Part shown: positions 1,521-9,711 of the stretch, one piece after another | Position numbering within the stretch: position 1 is the first letter of the stretch | How the letters are laid out: each line of letters starts with the position of its first letter | From: Thermoflexales bacterium | Lineage (GTDB): Bacteria; Chloroflexota; Anaerolineae; Fen-1058 | DNA length: 12,885 nt | Direction of reading: 5' to 3' | NCBI GenBank assembly: GCA_030834835.1 | Contig: JAUQXD010000108.1 | Coordinates: 1 to 12,885 of the forward strand | Notes under the pieces: model-generated | Seen by the model: only the letters and a program-made list of their open reading frames with translations | Told to the model about the DNA's origin: nothing | The model's database searches: none | Translations under genes and position numbers: made by a program

Positions 1521-2456
1521 ATGCGGGTTTTGATCACGGGCGGGGCGGGCTTTTTAGGCTCGCATTTGTGCGATAAATTTCTGGCCGAGGGCCATTCGGT
1601 CATCGCCATGGACAACCTCATCACCGGCAGCACGCGCAACATCGAGCATCTGGCCGGGCGCGATGATTTCCTCTTTATCAAGCAGGATGTGACCAACTAC
1701 ATTTACATCGAAGGGCCGGTCGATGCAGTGCTGCATTTTGCGTCCCCGGCCAGCCCGATCGACTACATGAACCTCCCGATTCAAACGCTGAAGGTCGGCG
1801 CGTTGGGCACGCACAAGGTGCTTGGTTTAGCCAAAGCCAAAGGCGCGCGCTTCCTGCAAGCCTCCACCAGTGAAGTGTATGGCGATCCGCAGATCCATCC
1901 GCAGCCGGAAAGTTACTGGGGCCACGTCAACCCGATCGGGCCGCGCGGCGTCTACGATGAAGCGAAGCGCTTCGCCGAAGCGATGACCATGGCCTATCAC
2001 CGCTATCACGGCGTCGATACCAAGATCGTCCGCATCTTCAACACCTACGGCCCACGCATGCGGCTGGAAGACGGGCGTGTCGTTCCGAACTTCATACCGC
2101 AAGCGCTGCGCGGCGAGCCGTTGACGGTCTTTGGCGACGGGTTGCAGACGCGCTCGTTCTGCTACTGCTCCGATCTGATCGACGGCATTTACAAACTGCT
2201 GATGAGTGACGAACACGAGCCGGTCAACATTGGCAACCCCACCGAACTGACCATCCGTGAATTCGCCGAGACGATCAATCGGTTGACGGGCAACACGGCG
2301 GGCATCGTGGTCCAGCCGGAGAAGCGCATCAAAGATGATCCGCAGACGCGCCGGCCCGACATCACCAAAGCCCACACGCTGCTGGGCTGGGAGCCGAAAG
2401 TCTCGCTGGAAGAAGGCCTGACGAAGACAATTGAGTATTTCAGGCACAGAATCTAG
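1521..2456 (+). CDS. uxs: UDP-glucuronate decarboxylase (UDP-xylose synthase), SDR family
   Basis: A 311-residue cytosolic enzyme that would convert UDP-glucuronate to UDP-xylose and CO2 using bound NAD+ (EC 4.1.1.35), supplying a pentose donor for surface glycan. An N-terminal Rossmann fold carries GGAGFLG at residues 7-13. The catalytic region has STSEVYGDP (115-123) and the YxxxK pair Y145/K149 in YDEAKR. VNPIGPR (136-142), IFNTYGPRM (172-180) and GDGLQTRSF (205-213) are hallmark UXS segments that separate it from GalE or RmlB. Length is typical for bacterial UXS. The ATG at 1521 has GGAG 6 nt upstream and begins directly with MRVLITGG. An in-frame ATG at 1509 overlaps that ribosome site and is less likely. 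It is the first gene of the operon, 25 nt before the ligase gene. No UDP-glucose dehydrogenase accompanies it. A related nucleotide-sugar epimerase is the only alternative. Confidence 0.9.
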
Positions 2457-2483
2457 GGATCAGTAATCGGGGATCGGTCAAGT
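2456..2483 (+). repeat. Heptamer array between uxs and the ligase gene
   Basis: Four 7-bp units are visible: GGGATCA, GTAATCG, GGGATCG and GTCAAGT. The array begins at the last base of the uxs stop codon and runs into the GTG start of the next gene. The likely ribosome-binding sequence of that gene (GGGGAT, 2469-2474) is therefore made of repeat sequence. It is short and degenerate, but shares its 7-bp period with the other arrays in the window. Confidence 0.5.
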
Positions 2484-3981
2484 GGTCGTAAGCGCCTCAT
2501 TTTCAACGCTGCGCCTTCCATCGACGATCATTGTCTTGACGGCAATGATCGTTGGTGCGTTTGGCATCAGCACCCTGCCCCTGTCCGTTCTCATCGTTAC
2601 GGTCGGCGTGTTAACGATTGTGATCGGCGCGTTGATCGAGCCGGGTATCGGCCTGATCGTGACGCTGCTGGTCGGGCCGTGGGCGGCATGGATGAATGTG
2701 TACACTCCCGGCGTGCTGCCCATTGACCTGGGGCAGATCATGGTCGGTTTCACGCTGGCGGTGTGGGTGCTGCACGGCCTGGCGAAACGCGACCTGACTT
2801 TGCCGAAATCGCCGTTGTTGATTCCACTGCTGTTGTTTGTAGGCTGGGCGGCCATGACGATGCTGTGGGCACCCGATCTGTCATTCGGTCTGCCCGAGGT
2901 CATGAAGTGGATCGAGGTCGTCGCGCTGATGTGGTTCTCGATCGACCTTGCGCGACGGCGAAGCATCAAGTGGATCATCGTCGCCGTGCTGCTAACGATG
3001 ATCATCCAGGCGCTGATCGGTATCTACGAAGCGCGTCTGCGCGGCGCGGGACCGCTCGGTTTTCAGTTGAGCGAAGGCGTTTATCGCGCCTACGGCACGT
3101 TTGAGCAGCCCAATCCGTTTGGCGGTTTCATCGGGATTGGCTTGACGATTGCAGTCGCGTTGGCGGCGTATTACGTACTGCGTACTGCGTACTGCGTAAT
3201 CAATCGACACAAATTACGCATTACGCATTACGCATTAACCGTTGTTTGCGGCGCAACGGCTGTCCTGCTCGCCCTCGCGCTTTATCTCTCTTTCTCGCGT
3301 GGCGCGTGGTTGGGGGCGGCGGCCGCCGTCGGGGCGATGATTGTCTTTGCGCCGCGACGGTTGTGGATCGGGCTGGGGCTGGCGGGCGTAGCCGCGGTCG
3401 CGCTGATCGGCCTGTCGAGTGCGGGGCTACTCCCGGCGACGATCAGCGATCGGCTGGCCGACGCCACCGACCTGCTGAACATCCGCGATGTGCGCGGCGT
3501 ACCCATCAACGATGCGAATTATGCGCTGATCGAGCGGCAGGCGCACTGGCAGGCGGCGCTGAACATGCTGAGCGATCGACCGTGGACGGGCGTGGGTTTC
3601 AGCAACTATCAGCCGCTGTATGAGCAATATCGCTTGCTGAACTGGCCGATGCCGCTGGGTCATGCGCACAACATCTATCTGAACTTCGCGGCCGAGACGG
3701 GCCTGCCGGGTCTGGTGGCGTATCTGGTGCTATGGGGCGCGGTGTTCGCCACTACGTTTCGCACCATTCGCCGCACTGACGGCCTTGAACGCGCGCTGGC
3801 GATCGGCCTGATGGGCACGTGGGTGCATCTCTCAACGCATATGCTGGTGGATAATCTCTACGTCAACAATACCCACCTGATCATCGGCGTGTTGTTTGGG
3901 TTGCTCGTCACGCTTAACCCATCACGCAGTACGCATTACTCATTACTCGTTATCGCGAAGCATCCCGTTGGGACTCATTAG
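2482..3981 (+). CDS. O-antigen ligase / polymerase-like membrane protein (Wzy_C family)
   Basis: A 499-residue polytopic inner-membrane protein with roughly 10-12 hydrophobic segments from residue 15 to 475. Members join or polymerise undecaprenyl-linked glycans on the outer face of the membrane. The Wzy_C signature is clear: SLSRG-like FSRGAWLG (271-278), the large external loop with DRPWTGVGFSNYQPLY (365-380), and GHAHNIYLNFAAETGLPG (393-410) with the conserved His and Asn. NPFGGF at 211-216 is another family landmark. The start is GTG at 2482 with GGGGAT just upstream. Two stretches derive from heptamer repeats: residues 229-253 in the loop before the FSRG helix, and the C-terminal tail from about 480. 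It ends 6 nt before gtrA1, so co-translation is likely. Sequence alone cannot separate ligase (WaaL) from polymerase (Wzy) or a protein O-glycosyltransferase. Confidence 0.85.
   Translation: MVVSASFSTLRLPSTIIVLTAMIVGAFGISTLPLSVLIVTVGVLTIVIGALIEPGIGLIVTLLVGPWAAWMNVYTPGVLPIDLGQIMVGFTLAVWVLHGLAKRDLTLPKSPLLIPLLLFVGWAAMTMLWAPDLSFGLPEVMKWIEVVALMWFSIDLARRRSIKWIIVAVLLTMIIQALIGIYEARLRGAGPLGFQLSEGVYRAYGTFEQPNPFGGFIGIGLTIAVALAAYYVLRTAYCVINRHKLRITHYALTVVCGATAVLLALALYLSFSRGAWLGAAAAVGAMIVFAPRRLWIGLGLAGVAAVALIGLSSAGLLPATISDRLADATDLLNIRDVRGVPINDANYALIERQAHWQAALNMLSDRPWTGVGFSNYQPLYEQYRLLNWPMPLGHAHNIYLNFAAETGLPGLVAYLVLWGAVFATTFRTIRRTDGLERALAIGLMGTWVHLSTHMLVDNLYVNNTHLIIGVLFGLLVTLNPSRSTHYSLLVIAKHPVGTH
3166..3240 (+). 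repeat. In-frame inverted heptamer element inside the ligase gene
   Basis: The left arm has five 7-bp units (GCGTATT, ACGTACT, GCGTACT twice, GCGTAAT; 3166-3200). A 12-nt spacer follows (3201-3212). The right arm has ATTACGC three times and ATTAACC (3213-3240). Bases 3180-3200 can pair with 3213-3233 at 19 of 21 positions. The 75-bp element is exactly 25 codons and encodes residues 229-253, including YVLRTAYCV and LRITHYAL. These lie between two membrane helices. Confidence 0.8.
3923..3957 (+). repeat. Heptamer array forming the C-terminal tail of the ligase
   Basis: Five units of 7 bp are visible: CACGCAG, TACGCAT, TACTCAT, TACTCGT and TATCGCG. They encode the polar end of the protein (STHYSLLVIA and flanking residues) after the last membrane helix. 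The units resemble the ATTACGC/GCGTACT units of the internal element, so the native C-terminus may have been extended by repeat DNA. Confidence 0.6.
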
Positions 3982-3987
3982 CCAATC

Positions 3988-4464
3988 ATGTCACGAATCA
4001 TTACTTTCGCAAAACGCAATCGCAAAGAACTCAAGCGCTTCATCAAGTTCATGTTTGTGGGCAGCGTCGGCGCCGTCATCGATTTCGGCGCACTGAACAT
4101 TCTGGCACACGTGCTCAATATTGACCTGCGCATCGCGGGCACGATCTCGTTTGCCATGGCCGTCACCAGCAATTTTCTATGGAATCGCTACTGGACGTAT
4201 CCCGAATCACGGGCTTTTCCGGCGCTCCCGCAGTACCTGCAGTTCTTCGTCATCAACGCGATGGCGCTGGTCATCCGGCTGCCGATCTTGACGCTGCTGC
4301 CCGGGCCGATTGGCGGCCTGCTGGAATCGCTGGGGTTGAATGCCAACACCGCTGAAGTGCTGGGCAACAACGCGGCCTTAGCCGTCGCCGTAGGCATTGC
4401 GATGTTCTGGAATTTTTTCATCAATCGGTTCGTTACGTATCGACATATCAAGGTCGGGCAGTAG
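3988..4464 (+). CDS. GtrA-family membrane protein, first of a tandem pair
   Basis: A 158-residue protein with four predicted membrane helices (about 20-43, 50-66, 83-105, 125-146). GtrA proteins act with glycosyltransferases in surface-glycan assembly and are thought to move or bind polyprenyl-linked sugars; the substrate here is unknown. Family marks are KFMFVGSVGAVIDFG (20-34) and SNFLWNRYWTYPES (61-74). MFWNFFINRFVTY (139-151) echoes the earlier WNRYWTY, giving a visible internal two-fold repeat. The ATG lies 6 nt after the ligase stop with no strong ribosome site, suggesting translational coupling. The next gene is its close paralogue, with the same MSR(I/L)IT..AK.NRKE.KRF.KF start and about half identity by eye. 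Confidence 0.88.
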   Translation: MSRIITFAKRNRKELKRFIKFMFVGSVGAVIDFGALNILAHVLNIDLRIAGTISFAMAVTSNFLWNRYWTYPESRAFPALPQYLQFFVINAMALVIRLPILTLLPGPIGGLLESLGLNANTAEVLGNNAALAVAVGIAMFWNFFINRFVTYRHIKVGQ

Positions 4465-4474
4465 GGCACGCGCT

Positions 4475-4990
4475 ATGTCTCGATTGATTACGCTCGCTAA
4501 AACCAACCGCAAGGAATTCAAACGCTTTGCCAAGTTTCTGGTCGTCGGTGCAACGGGCTTCATTGTCGATTTTGGCGTGTTCAACCTGCTGCTCCGCGCG
4601 CTGCAATTTCCGCCGATTCCAGCCCAGGCGATCTCATTCACTTCGGCGGCCACCAACAACTTCTTGTGGAATCGATACTGGACTTACCCTGACTCGCGTT
4701 CAAAACCGATCCTCAGACAGTTCACGCAGTTTTTTATCTTGAGCGTGATCGGACTGGTGGTTCGCACTCTGCTCTATAGCGTGTTCGACGATCCGGCGAT
4801 CGCCATCGTGGATTCGATGCAATATGGACCGTTCGCCGGGCTGTTGAGCTTTGCCGTCAATACACTGCATCTCACGCTGAGCCAAATCGCCGCCAACGCT
4901 GCCTTAGCTGCCGCCGTCTTCATCATGCTGTTCTGGAATTTCTTCTCCAACCGCTTCATTACGTACGGGGATGTGAAACTGGGTCATTAG
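4475..4990 (+). CDS. GtrA-family membrane protein, second of a tandem pair
   Basis: A 171-residue paralogue of the preceding gene, starting 10 nt after its stop. The ATG at 4475 is chosen because it aligns with the start of the first copy (MSRLITLAKTNRKEFKRFAKF). The open frame continues upstream only as an overlap inside the first gene. AGGG in the stop-codon region gives a weak ribosome site. Landmarks are VVGATGFIVDFG (23-34), NNFLWNRYWTYPDS (61-74) and FWNFFSNRFITY (153-164). Four membrane helices are predicted. The loop before helix 4 (about 105-128) is longer and more acidic than in the first copy, which may reflect a different partner or substrate. It sits between the ligase/first GtrA and a GT4 enzyme, fitting a role in the same glycan pathway. 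The heptamer hairpin region follows directly. Confidence 0.88.
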   Translation: MSRLITLAKTNRKEFKRFAKFLVVGATGFIVDFGVFNLLLRALQFPPIPAQAISFTSAATNNFLWNRYWTYPDSRSKPILRQFTQFFILSVIGLVVRTLLYSVFDDPAIAIVDSMQYGPFAGLLSFAVNTLHLTLSQIAANAALAAAVFIMLFWNFFSNRFITYGDVKLGH

Positions 4991-4993
4991 ATG

Positions 4994-5085
4994 TTGGAGG
5001 TTAGAAGTTGGAGATTGGAGTGAGTCACCGCCCACGATCTAGCCTCCAACTTCCAATTTCCAATTTCCACTCTCCAATTTCCAAT
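4994..5085 (+). repeat. Inverted heptamer arrays abutting the GT4 start codon
   Basis: The left arm has TTGGAGG, TTAGAAG, TTGGAGA and TTGGAGT (4994-5021). The right arm has CTCCAAC, TTCCAAT twice, TTCCACT, CTCCAAT and TTCCAAT (5044-5085). The last right-arm unit ends in the A and T of the GT4 ATG (5084-5086). Two competing mRNA helices can be drawn: 5004-5013 with 5044-5053 (10 perfect pairs), or 5007-5020 with 5072-5085 (14 pairs, two of them G-U). The second would bury the start codon. No Shine-Dalgarno is visible before this gene. Confidence 0.8.
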
Positions 5086-6349
5086 GCGCATCGGCATCGA
5101 TTACACCTCAGCCGCCACTCAGGGCGCGGGCATTGGCCGCTACACGCGCGAGCTGATGCGCGCACTGTTGGCAATGCCCGCGCCGCATACCTACTCATTG
5201 TTCTACGCGCGCCGCCAGCGCATCGATCACTCTAATTTCCAACTTCCAACTTCCAATCTCCATCATCTGCCCTTCCACGACAAATGGCTGATGCGCCTGT
5301 GGCAGCGCTTCCGCCTGCCGATCCCGGTTGAACTCATCGTCGGCAAGGTCGATTTGTTCCACTCGCCGGATTTCACGCTGCCCCCCACCCTGCCCGGTGT
5401 GCCGACGCTGTTGACCGTGCACGATCTATCCTTTGTGCGCGATCCCGATTCGGCCTGGCCGAGCCTGCGCGCCTTCCTGAACAAGGCCGTGCCCCGATCG
5501 GTGCAGCGCGCCACGCATGTGCTGGCGGACTCGCTGGCGACGAAGAATGATCTGATCGAGTTATTCGGCACGCCTGCCGAGAAGATCACGGTGTTGTACA
5601 GCGGCGTCGAGGCGCGCTTCGCACCCGTGCGCGATCAAGTCGAGATCGATCGGGTGTGTGCGAAGTATCATCTGCCGAGGCCGTTTATTCTGTCCGTGGG
5701 CACGCTGCAACCACGTAAGAACTATGCGCGGTTGATCGAGGCGTTTGCGGAGTTGATCAAGCACCCTGAGCGAAGCCCCTCAGGGGCGAAGTCGAAGGAT
5801 GCGAGTGTGGGCGATGGCGCGTCCTTCGACTCCACTTCGTTCCGCTCAGGACGCTTGACGTCCGATTACTATCTCGTCATCACTGGCGGCAAAGGCTGGA
5901 TGTATGAGTCCATTTTTGAGCAAGTGAAATCACTCGGTCTGGAGAATCGCGTCCACTTTCCGGGCTTCGTGGACGATGCTGATTTGCCGACGTTGTATTC
6001 CGCCGCCAATCTCTTCGCCTACGTCTCGCTCTACGAAGGCTTTGGCTTGCCCTTGCTGGAAGCGATGGCCTGCGGCACACCCGTCATCGCGTCGAATGTC
6101 TCTTCACTGCCGGAAGTGGTGGGCGACGTGGGACTGCAAGTCGATCCGCGCGATGTGGCCGACGTCACGCGCGCACTGCGAACGATGATCGAGCAATCGG
6201 ATGTGAGAGCGACCTCGATCGCCGCCGGGCTTGATCGGGCGCGAACGTTTACGTGGGAGAAGGCGGCGCGTGAACTGCTGGCGATCTACGATCACATCAG
6301 TGTGCCAAAGAAGAAAGATAGAAAGAATCCTGGTGAGAACAGAGGCTAG
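5084..6349 (+). CDS. Glycosyltransferase family 4 (GT-B fold)
   Basis: A 421-residue cytoplasmic or membrane-peripheral enzyme that transfers a sugar from a nucleotide donor to a growing glycan, retaining type. The N-terminal domain begins [21 protein letters not shown] with the acceptor-side glycine-rich loop (14-18) and has [12 protein letters not shown] (89-100) and LLTVHDLSF (109-117). The C-terminal domain has [10 protein letters not shown] (204-213), the phosphate-binding R/K pair, LVITGGKGW (264-272) and the EX7E motif as EGFGLPLLE (318-326) with MACGTPV. The start is set by this N-terminus although no ribosome site is visible. Two repeat-derived insertions are read in frame: residues about 49-60 ([12 protein letters not shown]) and about 227-256 (ERSPSGAKS to SFRSG). 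The last 15-20 residues ([15 protein letters not shown]) are lysine-rich and AT-rich, unlike the rest. The exact sugar cannot be told; mannosyl- and glucosyl-transferases share these motifs. Confidence 0.9.
5230..5264 (+). repeat. Heptamer array inside the GT4 coding sequence
   Basis: Five 7-bp units are visible: CTCTAAT, TTCCAAC twice, TTCCAAT and CTCCATC. They match the right-arm units that precede this gene, which lie about 145 bp upstream. They encode [12 protein letters not shown] in the variable region of the N-terminal GT-B domain, between the first beta-alpha unit and the FHDKW segment. Confidence 0.75.
5765..5850 (+). repeat. 86-bp REP-like hairpin element inside the GT4 gene
   Basis: CCTGAGCG (5765-5772) and CGCTCAGG (5843-5850) are perfect inverted ends. 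An inner pair, 5791-5803 with 5818-5830, matches at 12 of 13 positions, the exception being a G-U pair in RNA. CCCCTCAGGGG (5776-5786) is a further internal palindrome. The element encodes residues about 228-256 and lies between the FAEL helix and the YLVITGG strand of the GT-B C-terminal domain, where GT4 proteins usually have only a short loop. It has no transposase gene and looks like a non-autonomous palindromic element. Confidence 0.75.
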
Positions 6350-6386
6350 TTTTCTAAATCAATGCTTGGGCAGAAGGCAGGTTCGA

Positions 6387-6827
6387 ATGCAGCGAGAAAC
6401 CAAACTGATTTATGACAAAGAAGAACTAACGGGAACAGACTACTTCGAGTTTCTTCCTGGCAAATACCACGATCAATGCTGGTGTGACGGATCGGTATTT
6501 TTAGACGAGGAGACTTTCACATTACTAGAGCCAGCCTTCGCAATGAATATTCGGCACTACGATCATTATGCCTTCACAGAGGTAAGCAAGGATGAATGGC
6601 CGGGAGTTCTCAGCGCCCTAAGAGAATTGGGAGACCATCTCAACATCGCAACCCAAACTAATGACCTCGAGGGCCGACTCGGTATGATGTTTACAACGAC
6701 AGAGTCTGACTTCAACCAGAATTTCGAGATAAACAAAAACAAATTGATCGATGTTGCAGACAGGTTGAGAGTCTGGATCATGGAAGCACTTGCCCAAAAC
6801 GAATGTGTCACGATTCTAGGAATGTGA
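6387..6827 (+). CDS. Hypothetical protein, AT-richer orphan gene
   Basis: A 146-residue soluble, acidic protein of no family I recognise. It has no signal peptide or membrane helix. Visible features are FLPGKYHDQCWCDGS (about 18-32, two Cys and two Trp), a central HYDHYAFTEVSKDEWPGVL stretch, and a C-terminal helix ending in VTILGM. The ATG at 6387 follows AAGGCAGG (6374-6381), the nearest purine-rich site; the frame is open further upstream but overlaps the GT4 gene. Base composition is visibly lower in GC than the neighbours, with TTA, CTA, ATA and AGA codons that they avoid. This suggests recent transfer. Single small cargo genes of this size are often immunity or accessory proteins, but nothing here shows that function. 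It sits in the same direction 37 nt after the GT4 stop and may be transcribed with it. Confidence 0.65.
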   Translation: MQRETKLIYDKEELTGTDYFEFLPGKYHDQCWCDGSVFLDEETFTLLEPAFAMNIRHYDHYAFTEVSKDEWPGVLSALRELGDHLNIATQTNDLEGRLGMMFTTTESDFNQNFEINKNKLIDVADRLRVWIMEALAQNECVTILGM

Positions 6828-6850
6828 TTGATCGGCTAGTGTCATCGCAG

Positions 6851-6900
6851 TTGTCTATTTGTTGGCTTGTCTACTTGTTTCCTTGTTTCCTCATCTACTT
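6851..6900 (+). repeat. Octamer array upstream of the C39/SH3/glycosidase gene
   Basis: The stretch has an 8-bp period: TTGTCTAT, TTGTTGGC, TTGTCTAC, TTGTTTCC twice, TCATCTAC, and a trailing TT. It is a longer-period relative of the heptamer arrays elsewhere. It sits just before the extended -10 box of the following gene, so its promoter region is largely repeat sequence. Confidence 0.6.
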
Positions 6901-6908
6901 TAGTCCCG

Positions 6909-6917
6909 TGCTACAAT
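6909..6917 (+). promoter_or_regulatory. Extended -10 promoter (TGC-TACAAT)
   Basis: TGC followed by TACAAT lies 27 bp upstream of the ATG at 6945, after the octamer array. It has the same TACAAT hexamer and TGn extension as the promoter before uxs. No -35 hexamer stands at the usual spacing. It suggests that the following gene has its own promoter rather than relying on the glycan operon. Confidence 0.5.
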
Positions 6918-6944
6918 CACATCATCCTCAACCAGGAGCGAAGC

Positions 6945-9407
6945 ATGAGCAGCAGAATCCTCAACGTTCCGTACAAGACGCAGTGGGAGCCGGATGCCAA
7001 TCAAAAGAAGACCGATTGCGGGCCGTGCTGTGTGGCGATGATCCTGGCCGGCATGGGTCAGCCCGTCGCTACCAACGATGTGGTCAATGCGGCCGGCGGT
7101 ATGTCCGGCGACAGCGGCCTGCTGCAATGGGAAGTCGCCGCCAGAGCCGCTGCGTTTGGCCTGGACATGACGACCGGCAGCGGCTTCACGCTGGAGAACC
7201 TGAAGAGTTTTATCGACAACGGCCAGCCGCTCATTGCACTGGTGAAGTATGCGAACCTGCCAGACCGCGTAGACAAAAACTCGGTGAACGGGCACTACGT
7301 CGTCGTCGTCGGTTACGATGACGCACGCGGCGTGGCGTACATCAACGACCCCGATTATTTTTCTGGCACGACCGACGGCAGCCAGAAAGCCTATGCCTAT
7401 GAAACGTGGCTGTCGGCGTGGCGCGGCGACAACGCCACCGATCAGACCTACAATTGCAGCGCGATTGTGCCGACGAAGCAAAACATTGTCGGCGGCACGG
7501 GCGTGGCGACGCAGCCGATCGATCAGCCGACCCGCGACGTGTTCGTGATCGCGCCGTTGGGCTTGCAACTTCGCGCGCAGCCCAGCGTCACCGTCGGCGC
7601 CCCGAACGGCGCGCTGTTCGGCCAGCACCTCACGGCGGTCGGCAGCGAAAGCGCCGCCGATGCTTCAGGCTACACCTGGCAGAAAGTGCGCACCGATGCG
7701 GGGGTGAGCGCCTTTGTCGCCGCCTCGCTCAAAGGCGAGCGCTATTTGACTGACACCAGGCCCGATGATCCCTTCACTGCCACCGTGCTCGACGTGCCCG
7801 CCGTGCGTAACGCCAATGGTCTGGCGATTCGCGATCAACCTAATCCCGCGCTGAACGCACTCTGCCGCGTACAGCCCGGCGAGCGCCTGACGGTCTATCG
7901 TCAACTGGAGAGCAATGGCCTGCCGTGGCTGTGGGCCAAAGCACCCAACGGTACCATCGGTTACGCGCGCGAATCAGACGCCGGCCAGGTGTTTGTGAGC
8001 CGCGACGTCCCGGTCGTGATCGATACGTCGAACTCCGGCGCGGTGTCGGGCGACATCTGGGTGACAGTCGCCAGCGGACTCTTCGTGCGGCAACAACCCG
8101 ATCGGGATGCTCTGCTCGTCGATCCCGGTAAGCCGGGCGTCAGCATCGGCGCGCATCTCACTATCATCGGACCGAGCAAAGCCGTCGCCAACGATGTGTG
8201 GCAGCAGATCAAGACCGACGATGGTCGCCAGGGTTGGGTGGCAGTCAAGATCGATGGCGTCGAATCAGTCACGCCTGTTAAGTCCACCGGCGAAGTCTGG
8301 ATCAGCACGGACGGCGGATTGTTCCTGCGCCCGCAGCCCGATAAGAATTCGGGCACGGTGGTGAAAGACCCCCTGCCCAAAGGCACGCACTTAAACGTGC
8401 TGGGGCCAAAGCAGGGGCCGGATGCGCTCAACCTGACCTGGCAGCCCGTGAAAACCGACGATGGCCGCCAGGGTTGGGTGGCGGTGCTGAGCGGCACCGA
8501 AGCACTTGTCTCCACCAGCGCTCCGATTCAAATTCCGCCCGTGAGCATTGTGCCGTGGGGCAAGTGTCTGGCGGGGCTGGGCATGGGCAATCCACAACCG
8601 CTGTCGCCGATTGAGTTGGGCGTGATTCGCAAGGCCAATCTGGAAGCATTCAAGATGCTGACGCTGCCCGATCCCGGCGAGAACAAGACGCTGATCAGAC
8701 AGCTGCAACAGATCAATCCGAATATGTTCATCGTGGCGCGCCTGTTCTTCAAGCCCGACGTGGATAACAGGCGGCCGTTTTCGCCACAGGAGTTTGTCAA
8801 AGTGATTGAGGGGGGCATGACCGCGTGTTTTGAAGCGGGCGTGCGCTACTTCGAAGTCCACAACGAACCGAATCTCCCCGACGAAGGCGACACCTGGAAT
8901 TGGAACGGCGGCGCGGGGTTCGGCCAATGGTTGACGCAAGTGCTGGGCATTCTTCGCGGCAAATTCCCGGGCGTGAAGTTGGGCTATCCGGGCCTGTCGC
9001 CCAACGACGCGATGCGGTCGTTCATCGACGGCTCGACCGGTGCCATCGCGCAGTGCGATTGGATCGCCGCGCATAGCTACTGGCAGCATCCCACGCAGCC
9101 GCCCTTCCCGATGAATGCCGAAAACTCCGGCCTGAAGTGGCGCGTATTCCGCACTCTGTTTCCCGACAAGTTGATCATGGTCACGGAGTTCAGCAACAAT
9201 CGGGCGCAATTCAACAACGTGCCCACCACCGACGAAGACAAAGGCCGGCAGTATGTGGACTACTACAAACTGCTGCGCAATGAGCCTAACGTCGGCGCGG
9301 CCTTTGCCTTTGCCCTGACCTGGCCCGGCCAGGACATCAACCGCGAAGGCTGGGTGTTCAAGGGCGGTGAAACGAAGATCGCGGGGATTGTGGGGGCGAG
9401 AGCGTAA
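6945..9407 (+). CDS. C39-like peptidase domain + four SH3b modules + clan GH-A glycosidase domain
   Basis: An 820-residue modular protein. Residues 5-175 form a papain-like C39-family fold: DCGPCCVAM (24-32) with likely nucleophile C25, GHYVVVVGYDD (116-126) with H117, and INDPDYF (133-139) with D135, a complete Cys-His-Asp triad. Four bacterial SH3 modules follow at about 197-268, 276-352, 368-440 and 448-522. The last two share TDDGRQGWVAV and are a recent duplication. Residues about 530-820 resemble a GH5/GH39-type TIM barrel, with acid/base candidate E641 in EVHNEPNLP and nucleophile candidate E748 in VTEFSN. The ATG at 6945 has AGGAG 6 nt upstream. No signal peptide, lipobox or membrane helix is present, so the location is puzzling for a presumed cell-wall or glycan-binding protein; non-classical export or use on intracellular glycan are options. 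The C39 and SH3b calls are strong, the glycosidase call is good, and the substrate is unknown. Confidence 0.85.
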   Translation: MSSRILNVPYKTQWEPDANQKKTDCGPCCVAMILAGMGQPVATNDVVNAAGGMSGDSGLLQWEVAARAAAFGLDMTTGSGFTLENLKSFIDNGQPLIALVKYANLPDRVDKNSVNGHYVVVVGYDDARGVAYINDPDYFSGTTDGSQKAYAYETWLSAWRGDNATDQTYNCSAIVPTKQNIVGGTGVATQPIDQPTRDVFVIAPLGLQLRAQPSVTVGAPNGALFGQHLTAVGSESAADASGYTWQKVRTDAGVSAFVAASLKGERYLTDTRPDDPFTATVLDVPAVRNANGLAIRDQPNPALNALCRVQPGERLTVYRQLESNGLPWLWAKAPNGTIGYARESDAGQVFVSRDVPVVIDTSNSGAVSGDIWVTVASGLFVRQQPDRDALLVDPGKPGVSIGAHLTIIGPSKAVANDVWQQIKTDDGRQGWVAVKIDGVESVTPVKSTGEVWISTDGGLFLRPQPDKNSGTVVKDPLPKGTHLNVLGPKQGPDALNLTWQPVKTDDGRQGWVAVLSGTEALVSTSAPIQIPPVSIVPWGKCLAGLGMGNPQPLSPIELGVIRKANLEAFKMLTLPDPGENKTLIRQLQQINPNMFIVARLFFKPDVDNRRPFSPQEFVKVIEGGMTACFEAGVRYFEVHNEPNLPDEGDTWNWNGGAGFGQWLTQVLGILRGKFPGVKLGYPGLSPNDAMRSFIDGSTGAIAQCDWIAAHSYWQHPTQPPFPMNAENSGLKWRVFRTLFPDKLIMVTEFSNNRAQFNNVPTTDEDKGRQYVDYYKLLRNEPNVGAAFAFALTWPGQDINREGWVFKGGETKIAGIVGARA

Positions 9408-9526
9408 CGAGTGACGAGTGATGAGTGAATGGTAATCGGTCAATTGGTAATCAGTCAATTGGTAACTGGTTGACCGATTACGAGTTATCGCTTGACCATT
9501 TACCAATTACCGATCGACCAGTTGAC
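9404..9526. repeat. Heptamer and 15-bp repeat arrays with inverted copies after the modular gene
   Basis: GTAACGA, GTGACGA, GTGATGA and GTGAATG (9404-9431) start inside the stop codon of the preceding gene. Then come 15-bp units that read as 7+8: GGTAATCGGTCAATT (9431-9445), GGTAATCAGTCAATT (9446-9460) and GGTAACTGGTTGACC (9461-9475). Complementary TTACCAATTACC and GACCAGTTGACC segments (about 9500-9526) allow the block to fold back. This occupies much of the 299-bp convergent gap 9408-9706, in which I find no convincing gene. Confidence 0.7.
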
Positions 9527-9581
9527 CAAGAAGGAGGGACGGAGTGAAAGATTCGGCCCTCCGTTTGCGTTGTGCGACGAA

Positions 9582-9646
9582 AGACCTGACAGGTGGGCGA
9601 ACGGCGGCTTGCACGATCAAGATCAACTCGCCCACCTGTCAGGTCT
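9582..9646. repeat. Perfect 19-bp inverted repeat in the convergent gap
   Basis: The arms at 9582-9600 and 9628-9646 are exact reverse complements over 19 bp, separated by 27 nt. Within each arm ACCTG-A-CAGGT (or its complement) is a smaller palindrome. The repeat lies between the ends of two converging genes and could act as a two-way transcription terminator, although no T-run follows on either strand. It could equally be a small interspersed palindromic element. Confidence 0.75.
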
Positions 9647-9670
9647 CAAACCAATCCGCAATCGACTTCC

Positions 9671-9711
9671 GCATTATGCACTAAGCATTGAGCATTGTGC
9701 ATTGCATTACG
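9671..9711. repeat. Heptamer array overlapping the stop codon of the Eis-like gene
   Basis: The 7-bp units are GCATTAT, GCACTAA, GCATTGA, GCATTGT, a shortened GCATTG, and CATTACG (9671-9711). The minus-strand stop codon of the adjacent acetyltransferase gene (9707-9709) falls in the last unit. This is the rightmost clear array in the window. Confidence 0.65.

Follow-up and report, generated by a model that had tools for sequence, protein, structure and literature searches.

The stretch of DNA analyzed here, 12,885 bp from a Thermoflexales bacterium (contig JAUQXD010000108.1, our C660; hereafter the window), carries degenerate tandem arrays of 7-bp units. With moderate confidence, we read them as dispersed heptameric tandem repeats whose full form would be a foldback element, 5'-(unit)n, a short loop and (reverse-complement unit)n-3', with units of 7 and sometimes 8 bp, and in which period and hairpin would persist while the sequence is replaced. 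The comparison of related genomes suggests that repeat length and fold can outlast sequence.

Heptamer arrays of the window and their foldback structure

Arrays were called by a scan at lag 7 that required at least 17 equal positions in 21 comparisons, with an identical scan at lag 8 and 100 dinucleotide shuffles of the window as background. The lag-7 scan returned seven arrays (3165-3204, 3207-3244, 3920-3953, 5038-5085, 5229-5264, 9401-9429 and 9675-9705) and the lag-8 scan one (6866-6894), none of the 100 shuffles contained an array at either lag, and Tandem Repeats Finder (TRF) agreed with the scans in outline. Another array, at 4986-5021, was gained at slightly looser lag settings. An earlier interpretation of this DNA made from its letters (the sequence-only reading) had listed eight arrays of period 7 or 8; seven of these places were recovered by the lag scans and TRF, and the eighth, at 2456, stayed below threshold at all three lag-7 settings. 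This place (2457-2481, in the gap between the epimerase and ligase genes) may be a relic, since its surroundings align by eye with a gap in the related genome G004 that holds recognizable GGATCGG/TTAATCA/GGGATTA-like units. Conversely, that list has no start for the array at 5038-5085 or for the 9430-9530 repeats, to which TRF assigns period 15. The proposal that arrays saturate the gaps is too strong, as lag-7 array bases total 256 of 12,885 (~2%). Array density is nonetheless higher here than in a random sample of the same genome, which predicts 0.6 arrays where 7 are present (Poisson 3e-6, for a window picked for its striking look).

Inverted pairing of arrays, also proposed from the sequence, is real at 3176-3237, 4985-5086 and ~9438-9527. 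RNA folds of both strands of these three dyads had energies between -30.9 and -45.4 kcal/mol and z between -2.5 and -5.3; one of these six folds was equalled in stability by 4 of its 200 shuffles. The first dyad lies in frame in the O-antigen ligase gene (Pfam Wzy_C) and consists of a 5' arm of ACTGCGT units (3165-3204, the left arm of the foldback 3176-3237) and a 3' arm of ATTACGC units that reads RITHYAL (3207-3244), both found by TRF and the lag-7 scan; a simple nucleotide search, read by eye, gave both-strand matches to it at no fewer than nine places of the host assembly, G000. The second fills the gap between a gtrA stop and a glycosyltransferase start, with a left arm of TTGGAGA/TTGGAAG (4986-5021; TRF, looser lag 7 and foldback) and a right arm of CCAATTT/CCAACTT that reaches into the ATG at 5084 (5038-5085; lag 7 and foldback). 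The third, of GGTAATT type, follows a GAGTGAT array that holds a stop codon, the two together occupying 9399-9530 between convergent genes (TRF, lag 7 and foldback). Four arrays stand apart from these dyads: ATTACTC/ATTACGC units forming the final codons of the ligase gene (3920-3953; lag 7), with no equivalent seen in G004; TTCCAAC units within the glycosyltransferase gene (5229-5264; lag 7); a pyrimidine-rich period-8 array 5' of the C39 peptidase/SH3 gene (6851-6894; TRF and lag 8); and GCATTGA units next to the stop codon of the GNAT gene on the minus strand (9670-9706; lag 7 at two settings). Apart from the possible relic, which is given without strand, all are listed on the plus strand. 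These arrays touch gene products: three clusters are in frame within genes and, as had been noticed from the letters, arrays touch stops and starts, with the stop TAA at 9405-9407 inside an array, the ATG at 5084 overlapping a last unit and the minus-strand stop at 9707-9709 adjoining an array on direct reading.

We also applied a foldback test, which asks for an inverted partner at most 120 bp away or inside the array and sets its cutoff from 2,340 null comparisons, at their 99th percentile. A partner at or above this cutoff was found for 41 of 91 arrays; contigs selected by hits, with 26 arrays, do not enter this count or that of the unit vocabulary. In 63 sequences including the window, we read the junction between gtrA and the glycosyltransferase gene by eye (18 of the 80 loci introduced below were left out). 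A heptamer dyad lies between the gtrA stop and the glycosyltransferase start in the window, L140, L148, L150, L153, L162 and L178, and variants occur in L152 (mostly one arm), L154 (a hairpin with eroded period) and L175 (a long array). Many other sequences have a stop-start distance of a few tens of bases, and in G004 ~9 bp separate the aligned flanks.

Arrays are dispersed through the genome and its relatives

The sequence-only reading had asked for a genome-wide scan for an excess of period-7 arrays, and in a random sample of the genome such an excess exists. G000 comprises 6.48 Mb in 1452 contigs (90.7% complete, 7% contamination), and 60 random contigs yielded 39 readable ones with 259,871 readable bases, the 21 masked contigs all being shorter than 3 kb. 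In this sample we found 12 period-7 arrays on 10 contigs (46 per Mb), so the arrays are not confined to the contig of the window, and three shuffles gave a mean of 0.3. The outcome that would have refuted the sequence-only reading was thus not observed among these contigs. The same sample held 3, 3 and 2 arrays at periods 8, 9 and 10, none at 5, 6 and 11, and 9 at the multiple 14; a looser setting gave 23 arrays at period 7 vs 7 at period 6 and 7 at period 9. A second set of 80 loci was fetched by their glycosyltransferase (1.21 Mb, mostly Chloroflexota, four of them contigs of the related genomes G001-G004) and contained 69 period-7 arrays in 25 loci, along with 25 at period 8, 12 at period 6 and none at 5 and 11, compared to 2 arrays in one shuffle. 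The spread is patchy: stretches taken from G014 and G036 had no arrays, that from G030 had weak ones only, and the G033 stretch had five of other composition. The G033 locus L133 also contains long telomere-like GGGGTTG arrays with mixed spacing (3048-3138 and 4600-4729).

Arrays lie mainly in gaps. With genes called by a crude caller of our own (88% coding over 80 contigs), 11 of the 16 array clusters in the random contigs and the window are intergenic, several of these covering an entire stop-to-start gap, and 5 lie within genes. The contigs that were picked for their hits gave 49 clusters: 20 intergenic, 4 at the edge of a contig and 25 in called genes, of which a count by eye places 12 no farther than 4% from a gene end. 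The sites are DNA that tolerates extra bases, namely the stop-to-start gaps of neighbor genes and variable protein loops. This location bears on a further explanation, in which selection would maintain the hairpins between genes for a signaling role in RNA or translation, be it as terminators, as sites of processing or as two-way stop cassettes. The intergenic bias in a mostly coding background and the arrays that fill whole gaps speak for it; the arrays within genes speak against it, as do the intergenic arrays, which distribute over gene-pair types roughly like intergenic bases with no favor for convergent pairs, and an Rfam search of four sources, which matched no array, nothing in the window and two tRNAs only. 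Taken with the polarity data below, we consider such selection unlikely.

Array composition differs from that of the host (mean G+C 46% vs 58%), and the two are not positively correlated across 51 loci. This is one of several observations that make independent neutral slippage of chance sequence, with a polymerase that favors period 7 and with dyads and shared words arising by chance, highly improbable. It is true that, among long simple repeats, heptanucleotides are reported to be the most abundant class in the majority of genomes studied, for which a polymerase-contact idea has been put forward (Mrazek 2007, as told in the available passages of PMC4679880). The dyads, however, are far above the null and disfavor this explanation, and it sits poorly with the restricted vocabulary and the polarity of the units described below.

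Orthologous sites can carry different units

Comparison with close relatives revealed presence and absence differences between genomes, and also sites at which the array persists with a changed unit. At the glycosyltransferase loop (codons at 5228), all five family genomes compared carry an array, with four unit types: TTCCAAC in the window, TTCCAAT/C in G001, CAGCAAT-like units in G002, CAGCATT and CAGCGAT in G003, and CCGCATT in G004. Of 73 orthologues aligned with the window at this loop (7 of the 80 loci were unused), 69 come from outside the five family genomes, and their linkers measure 26-41 residues, except that of L174, which has 72 residues and an array of its own there. The linkers of the five array-bearing genomes measure 31-38 residues, so the array replaced a variable loop with no great lengthening. 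The ligase loop (3164-3245) is likewise array-coded in the window, G004/L139, L148, L152, L153 and L154, and is short in L175. As judged by eye, the 3' end of the GNAT gene has GCATTGA units in the window vs TTCATTG-like repeats in G001, and the gap at 6851 has pyrimidine-rich period-8 repeats in the window and other pyrimidine-rich repeats in G003 and G004.

A quartet of loci with flanks 76-98% identical (L148, L152, L153 and L154) permitted a closer comparison. Sites A and B have arrays in all four, with unit types partly shared, and the three genomes syntenic at site D each have their own unit there (AAGCCGT, AATCCGT and ACGCATC). At the gtrA junction, site C, three genomes have AATCTCC and L154 has a below-threshold hairpin; site E has one unit type, present in two and absent in two; and site F is occupied only in L148 of three syntenic genomes, as an insertion of ~75 bp. 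At site G, aligned flanks enclose a dyad of 7-bp GATTGGA units in L148, of 8-bp GAGATTAG units in L152 and of 8-bp GGGTAATT units in L153. The arms match within each dyad, and both arms differ together among the three genomes, in one case even in period.

Such sites can be read in two ways. The glycosyltransferase loop favors replacement in place, with some units differing by eye in one or two letters in the same register. Alternatively, the arrays may be miniature mobile elements, similar to miniature inverted-repeat transposable elements (MITEs) or REPINs and moved by a transposase in trans, so that unit swaps are reinsertions and the preferred polarity is that of a recognized hairpin. We regard this as possible, though not probable. 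Consistent with it are the polarity of the TGCGTAA dyads (see below), a clean insertion of ~75 bp in L148 vs L152 and L153 (S1), the dispersal of similar copies within one locus, and a longer dispersed element around the dyad in G081 (~170 bp; L267-L275 and L277-L279), of which 19 segments were aligned, ~15 of them whole by eye. On the other side, no target duplication was seen by eye at S1, a single clean insertion; the loops of the listed G000 dyads differ by eye, with only C153 and C993 sharing one; and Y1 transposases (PF01797), encoded by 140 of 199 genomes, with 2 copies in G000, were not found in G001, which is 73% complete and has 36 dyad matches. A Y1/RAYT transposase as the driver was set aside, since a comparison by eye showed no useful association of its presence with dyads; Y1 was the only transposase family tested. 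Replacement in place and reinsertion are not separable at every site, and site G fits either.

Within arrays and elements, unit types also grade or alternate. The single array of L042 passes through several unit types, including intermediates between types. Among the 19 aligned G081 segments, three with GTCAAA-/GTGAAA-type arms share flanks with GCGTAAT-type copies (by eye), and some copies that have the flank in common on at least one side carry different words in both arms. The conserved right part of the G081 element ends in a promoter-like TTGC..CTATTTTC, and its core word has 179 matches genome-wide.

Unit vocabulary and dyad polarity

The units are drawn from a restricted vocabulary: the 83 contig-by-class cases represent 56 unit classes, compared to ~80 expected for random heptamers (300 simulations, minimum 74), and kinship among the genomes adds to this restriction. 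Some dyads also have a preferred polarity. TGCGTAA..TTACGCA occurs in G000 44 times forward (35 separate places by our own count) and 3 times in reverse (2 places), and across 199 genomes 62 have a forward match and 29 a reverse one. In the genomes with at least 10 forward matches, the forward and reverse counts are 44:3 (G000), 36:2 (G001), 10:0 (G002), 14:0 (G003), 16:4 (G059), 179:0 (G081), 25:0 (G125), 29:0 (G141), 21:0 (G149) and 24:0 (G159); G004 has 4 forward and 3 reverse. Exceptions are G069 (0:16), apparently owing to another repeat (TTACGCAGATT..AATCTGCGTAA), and G073, G147, G150 and G171 (0 or 1 forward vs 4 reverse). Reverse-polarity array dyads exist in G000 (contig C56) and G004 (contig C105), and part of the forward matches come from another palindrome (TGCGTAAGTCCT...). 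A palindrome unlike the heptamer dyads, TGCGTAAGTCCT..CTCACCTTACGCA or ..ATGTTACGCA, is dispersed in genomes of several families (G189, G129, G124 and G178).

Two other words weigh against a general polarity rule. CCGTAAT showed no asymmetry across the 199 genomes (21 genomes forward vs 24 reverse), except in G081 (13:0) and G178 (5:2). GAGATTG matches forward in 103 and in reverse in 121 of the same genomes, with 2:23 in G000 and reverse leading in G001-G004 as well. Of the 23 reverse places in G000, the 12 that were read by eye all lie in another palindromic element, none with an adjoining heptamer array, and a reverse match in L157 looks like chance. The element in question is a palindromic family in G000, gaagCAATCTC..GAGATTG inside cgtcattgcgag..ctcgcaatgac, seen at 12 of the 12 places read (L281-L292). 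In a small unbiased local sample, with too few sites, none of the 103 words tested in G000 showed polarity at p<1e-3, and in the relatives 1 of 821 did; a striking local table includes contigs fetched by dyad match and counts word pairs, not sites.

A different asymmetry concerns stop trinucleotides. After dropping 3 of 50 foldbacks whose arms lack heptamer units (W 9585, L171 16267 and L174 13059), TAA, TAG and TGA are richer in the 5' arm than in its reverse complement in 35 dyads vs 3, with 9 ties (n=47). The excess is 23:3 with 8 ties (n=34) without the hit-selected contigs and 21:2 with 4 ties (n=27) when each unit class is counted once. This asymmetry was found by looking, with no prior prediction. 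A stop trinucleotide repeated every 7 bp places stops in all three frames, and the excess is a point in favor of selection on the hairpins as RNA or translation signals. Control hairpins, however, lean the same way, less strongly (52:30, 117 ties, n=199; 11:10 for the 54 intergenic controls), and units of the GGAGATT type contain no stop, yet 8 of 8 dyads of this class share polarity. It is quite unlikely, but conceivable, that what is inherited at a site is period and fold, with both arms rewritten together, and that 5'-arm stops on both strands constitute a two-way, three-frame stop; if true, this would help to explain why the period is coprime to three and why the elements lie between genes. 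As a separate candidate rule, a purine-rich 5' arm was rejected as not specific (34 vs 12 in array foldbacks and 20 vs 10 in control hairpins).

Concerted change as a candidate mechanism

The sequence-only reading had attributed different units of one period to a common generating mechanism and not to descent from one sequence. One period with many units does fit a process. The units are not independent, though, and the restricted vocabulary, the several unit types within the L042 array and the preferred polarity imply that descent or copying is involved besides a common mechanism. In the explanation we favor, the foldback element with persisting period and hairpin, an established array would evolve in concert, slippage spreading a variant along one arm and template switching between the arms carrying it to the other, so that period and hairpin would be kept while the letters are replaced. 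The data show dispersal, foldback, location in gaps and unlike units at orthologous places; from these we infer slippage and template switching as the putative cause, and replacement in place over reinsertion. Template switching is described as homogenizing the arms of inverted repeats in the available passages of PMC8604942 and PMC7202029.

Several points weigh against this explanation. No partner was found for 50 of the 91 arrays in the foldback test; turnover is not universal, since the arrays present at quartet sites C and E share one unit type; the units at site G are so different that they could just as well stem from the reinsertion of another element; and arm-to-arm copying alone does not predict a preferred polarity. 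Moreover, the evidence is comparative throughout, with no mutation observed, and the compared genomes are mostly metagenome assemblies, in which copy number is uncheckable in reads. Seven-base repeats dominate the long simple repeats of many bacteria, and orthologous sites with a persisting array and a changed unit make slippage with template switching, reinsertion and hairpin selection testable alternatives.

Other features of the window

By Pfam, the window encodes a PAS protein, an epimerase, the Wzy_C ligase, GtrA twice, glycosyltransferases of groups 1 and 4, a C39_2 peptidase with SH3, and GNAT. A second foreign-looking palindromic stretch lies in the glycosyltransferase gene (5789-5866), where relatives often align in two pieces around residues 226-260 and the corresponding place of G001 aligns in reverse orientation. 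A small gene at 6387-6824 has no Pfam match, and the glycosyltransferase-C39 gap of G001, G003 and G004 is too short for it. In the convergent-gene gap, a perfect 19-bp inverted repeat (AGACCTGACAGGTGGGCGA; 9582-9600 and 9628-9646, 27-bp spacer) is unrelated to the heptamers.

Comparison with known repeat systems

Heptameric short tandemly repeated repetitive (STRR) sequences are known from filamentous cyanobacteria, as the sequence-only reading had noted, and heptamer arrays as such are well known. In our own scan, plasmid A of Trichormus variabilis has 12 period-7 arrays in 350 kb, or 34 per Mb vs 46 per Mb in the G000 sample. The arrays described here resemble STRR sequences in having degenerate 7-bp units above chance, several unit types per genome and many dispersed copies in a mainly intergenic location (11/16). 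They differ in their host, Chloroflexota, in their unit words and in foldback, with partners for 41 of 91 arrays here, whereas in the Trichormus plasmid we saw by eye one close dyad (2 of 12 arrays) and one inverted pair with a separation of ~140 bp. We infer that the arrays are heptameric tandem repeats of the cyanobacterial kind, here often formed into hairpins.

REPIN/RAYT families, like our arrays, are dispersed palindromes between genes. The likeness extends to MITE families (as compared in the passages available from PMC4853749), and in both cases our arrays differ in that a conserved element sequence was seen only in G081 and that no linked transposase was found (Y1 family tested). Unlike REPINs, the G000 dyads share words in their arms while their loops differ by eye, one pair excepted.

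Other heptamer families have been reported, and we cite them from the passages available. Three heptanucleotides in Calothrix are mentioned in PMC4692102, GATAGRA heptamers of Chloroflexus aurantiacus are listed in 'Satellites in the prokaryote world' (PMC6749651), and two Cyanothece strains share the positions of their heptamer arrays, where most indels come in steps of 7 nt (PMC4679880). The TAACTGA repeats of Beggiatoaceae (PMC4679880) and the Geobacter metallireducens elements, which consist of four or five heptamers (PMC2700814), resemble ours as dispersed arrays near starts and in gaps, with some in genes; they differ in having one consensus unit per family, and a swap of unit type at orthologous sites is not described in those passages. 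In the open-access literature, which leaves most subscription papers outside, the passages available held no description of heptamer hairpins in Thermoflexales or Anaerolineae and none of a genome-wide change of unit type in both arms at orthologous sites.

The nearest precedents, as far as the available passages tell, are an intron stem of Nostoc (PMC4476775) and heptamers of Xanthomonas (PMC4692102). The P6b stem of the Nostoc tRNA-Leu intron contains 7-nt repeats of class I (TDNGATT) and class II (NNTGAGT) that, like our units, pair in a hairpin with complementary heptamers in both arms, undergo motif indels and have repeatedly and independently swapped unit class at one site (PMC4476775); there the repeats occupy a single group I intron position, whereas here they are dispersed over gaps and protein genes, with no Rfam match in the window. 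The GGGAATC heptamers of Xanthomonas form 186 and 183 dispersed patterns in two species, with GGGGA(C/T)T as the counterpart in Nostoc; these G-rich heptamers consist of one unit type and were studied for quadruplex formation, in contrast to ours. The likeness to our arrays is that the majority of the Xanthomonas patterns lie between the same genes in both species, with extensive variation in length and sequence, and that inverted arrangements occur (PMC4692102).

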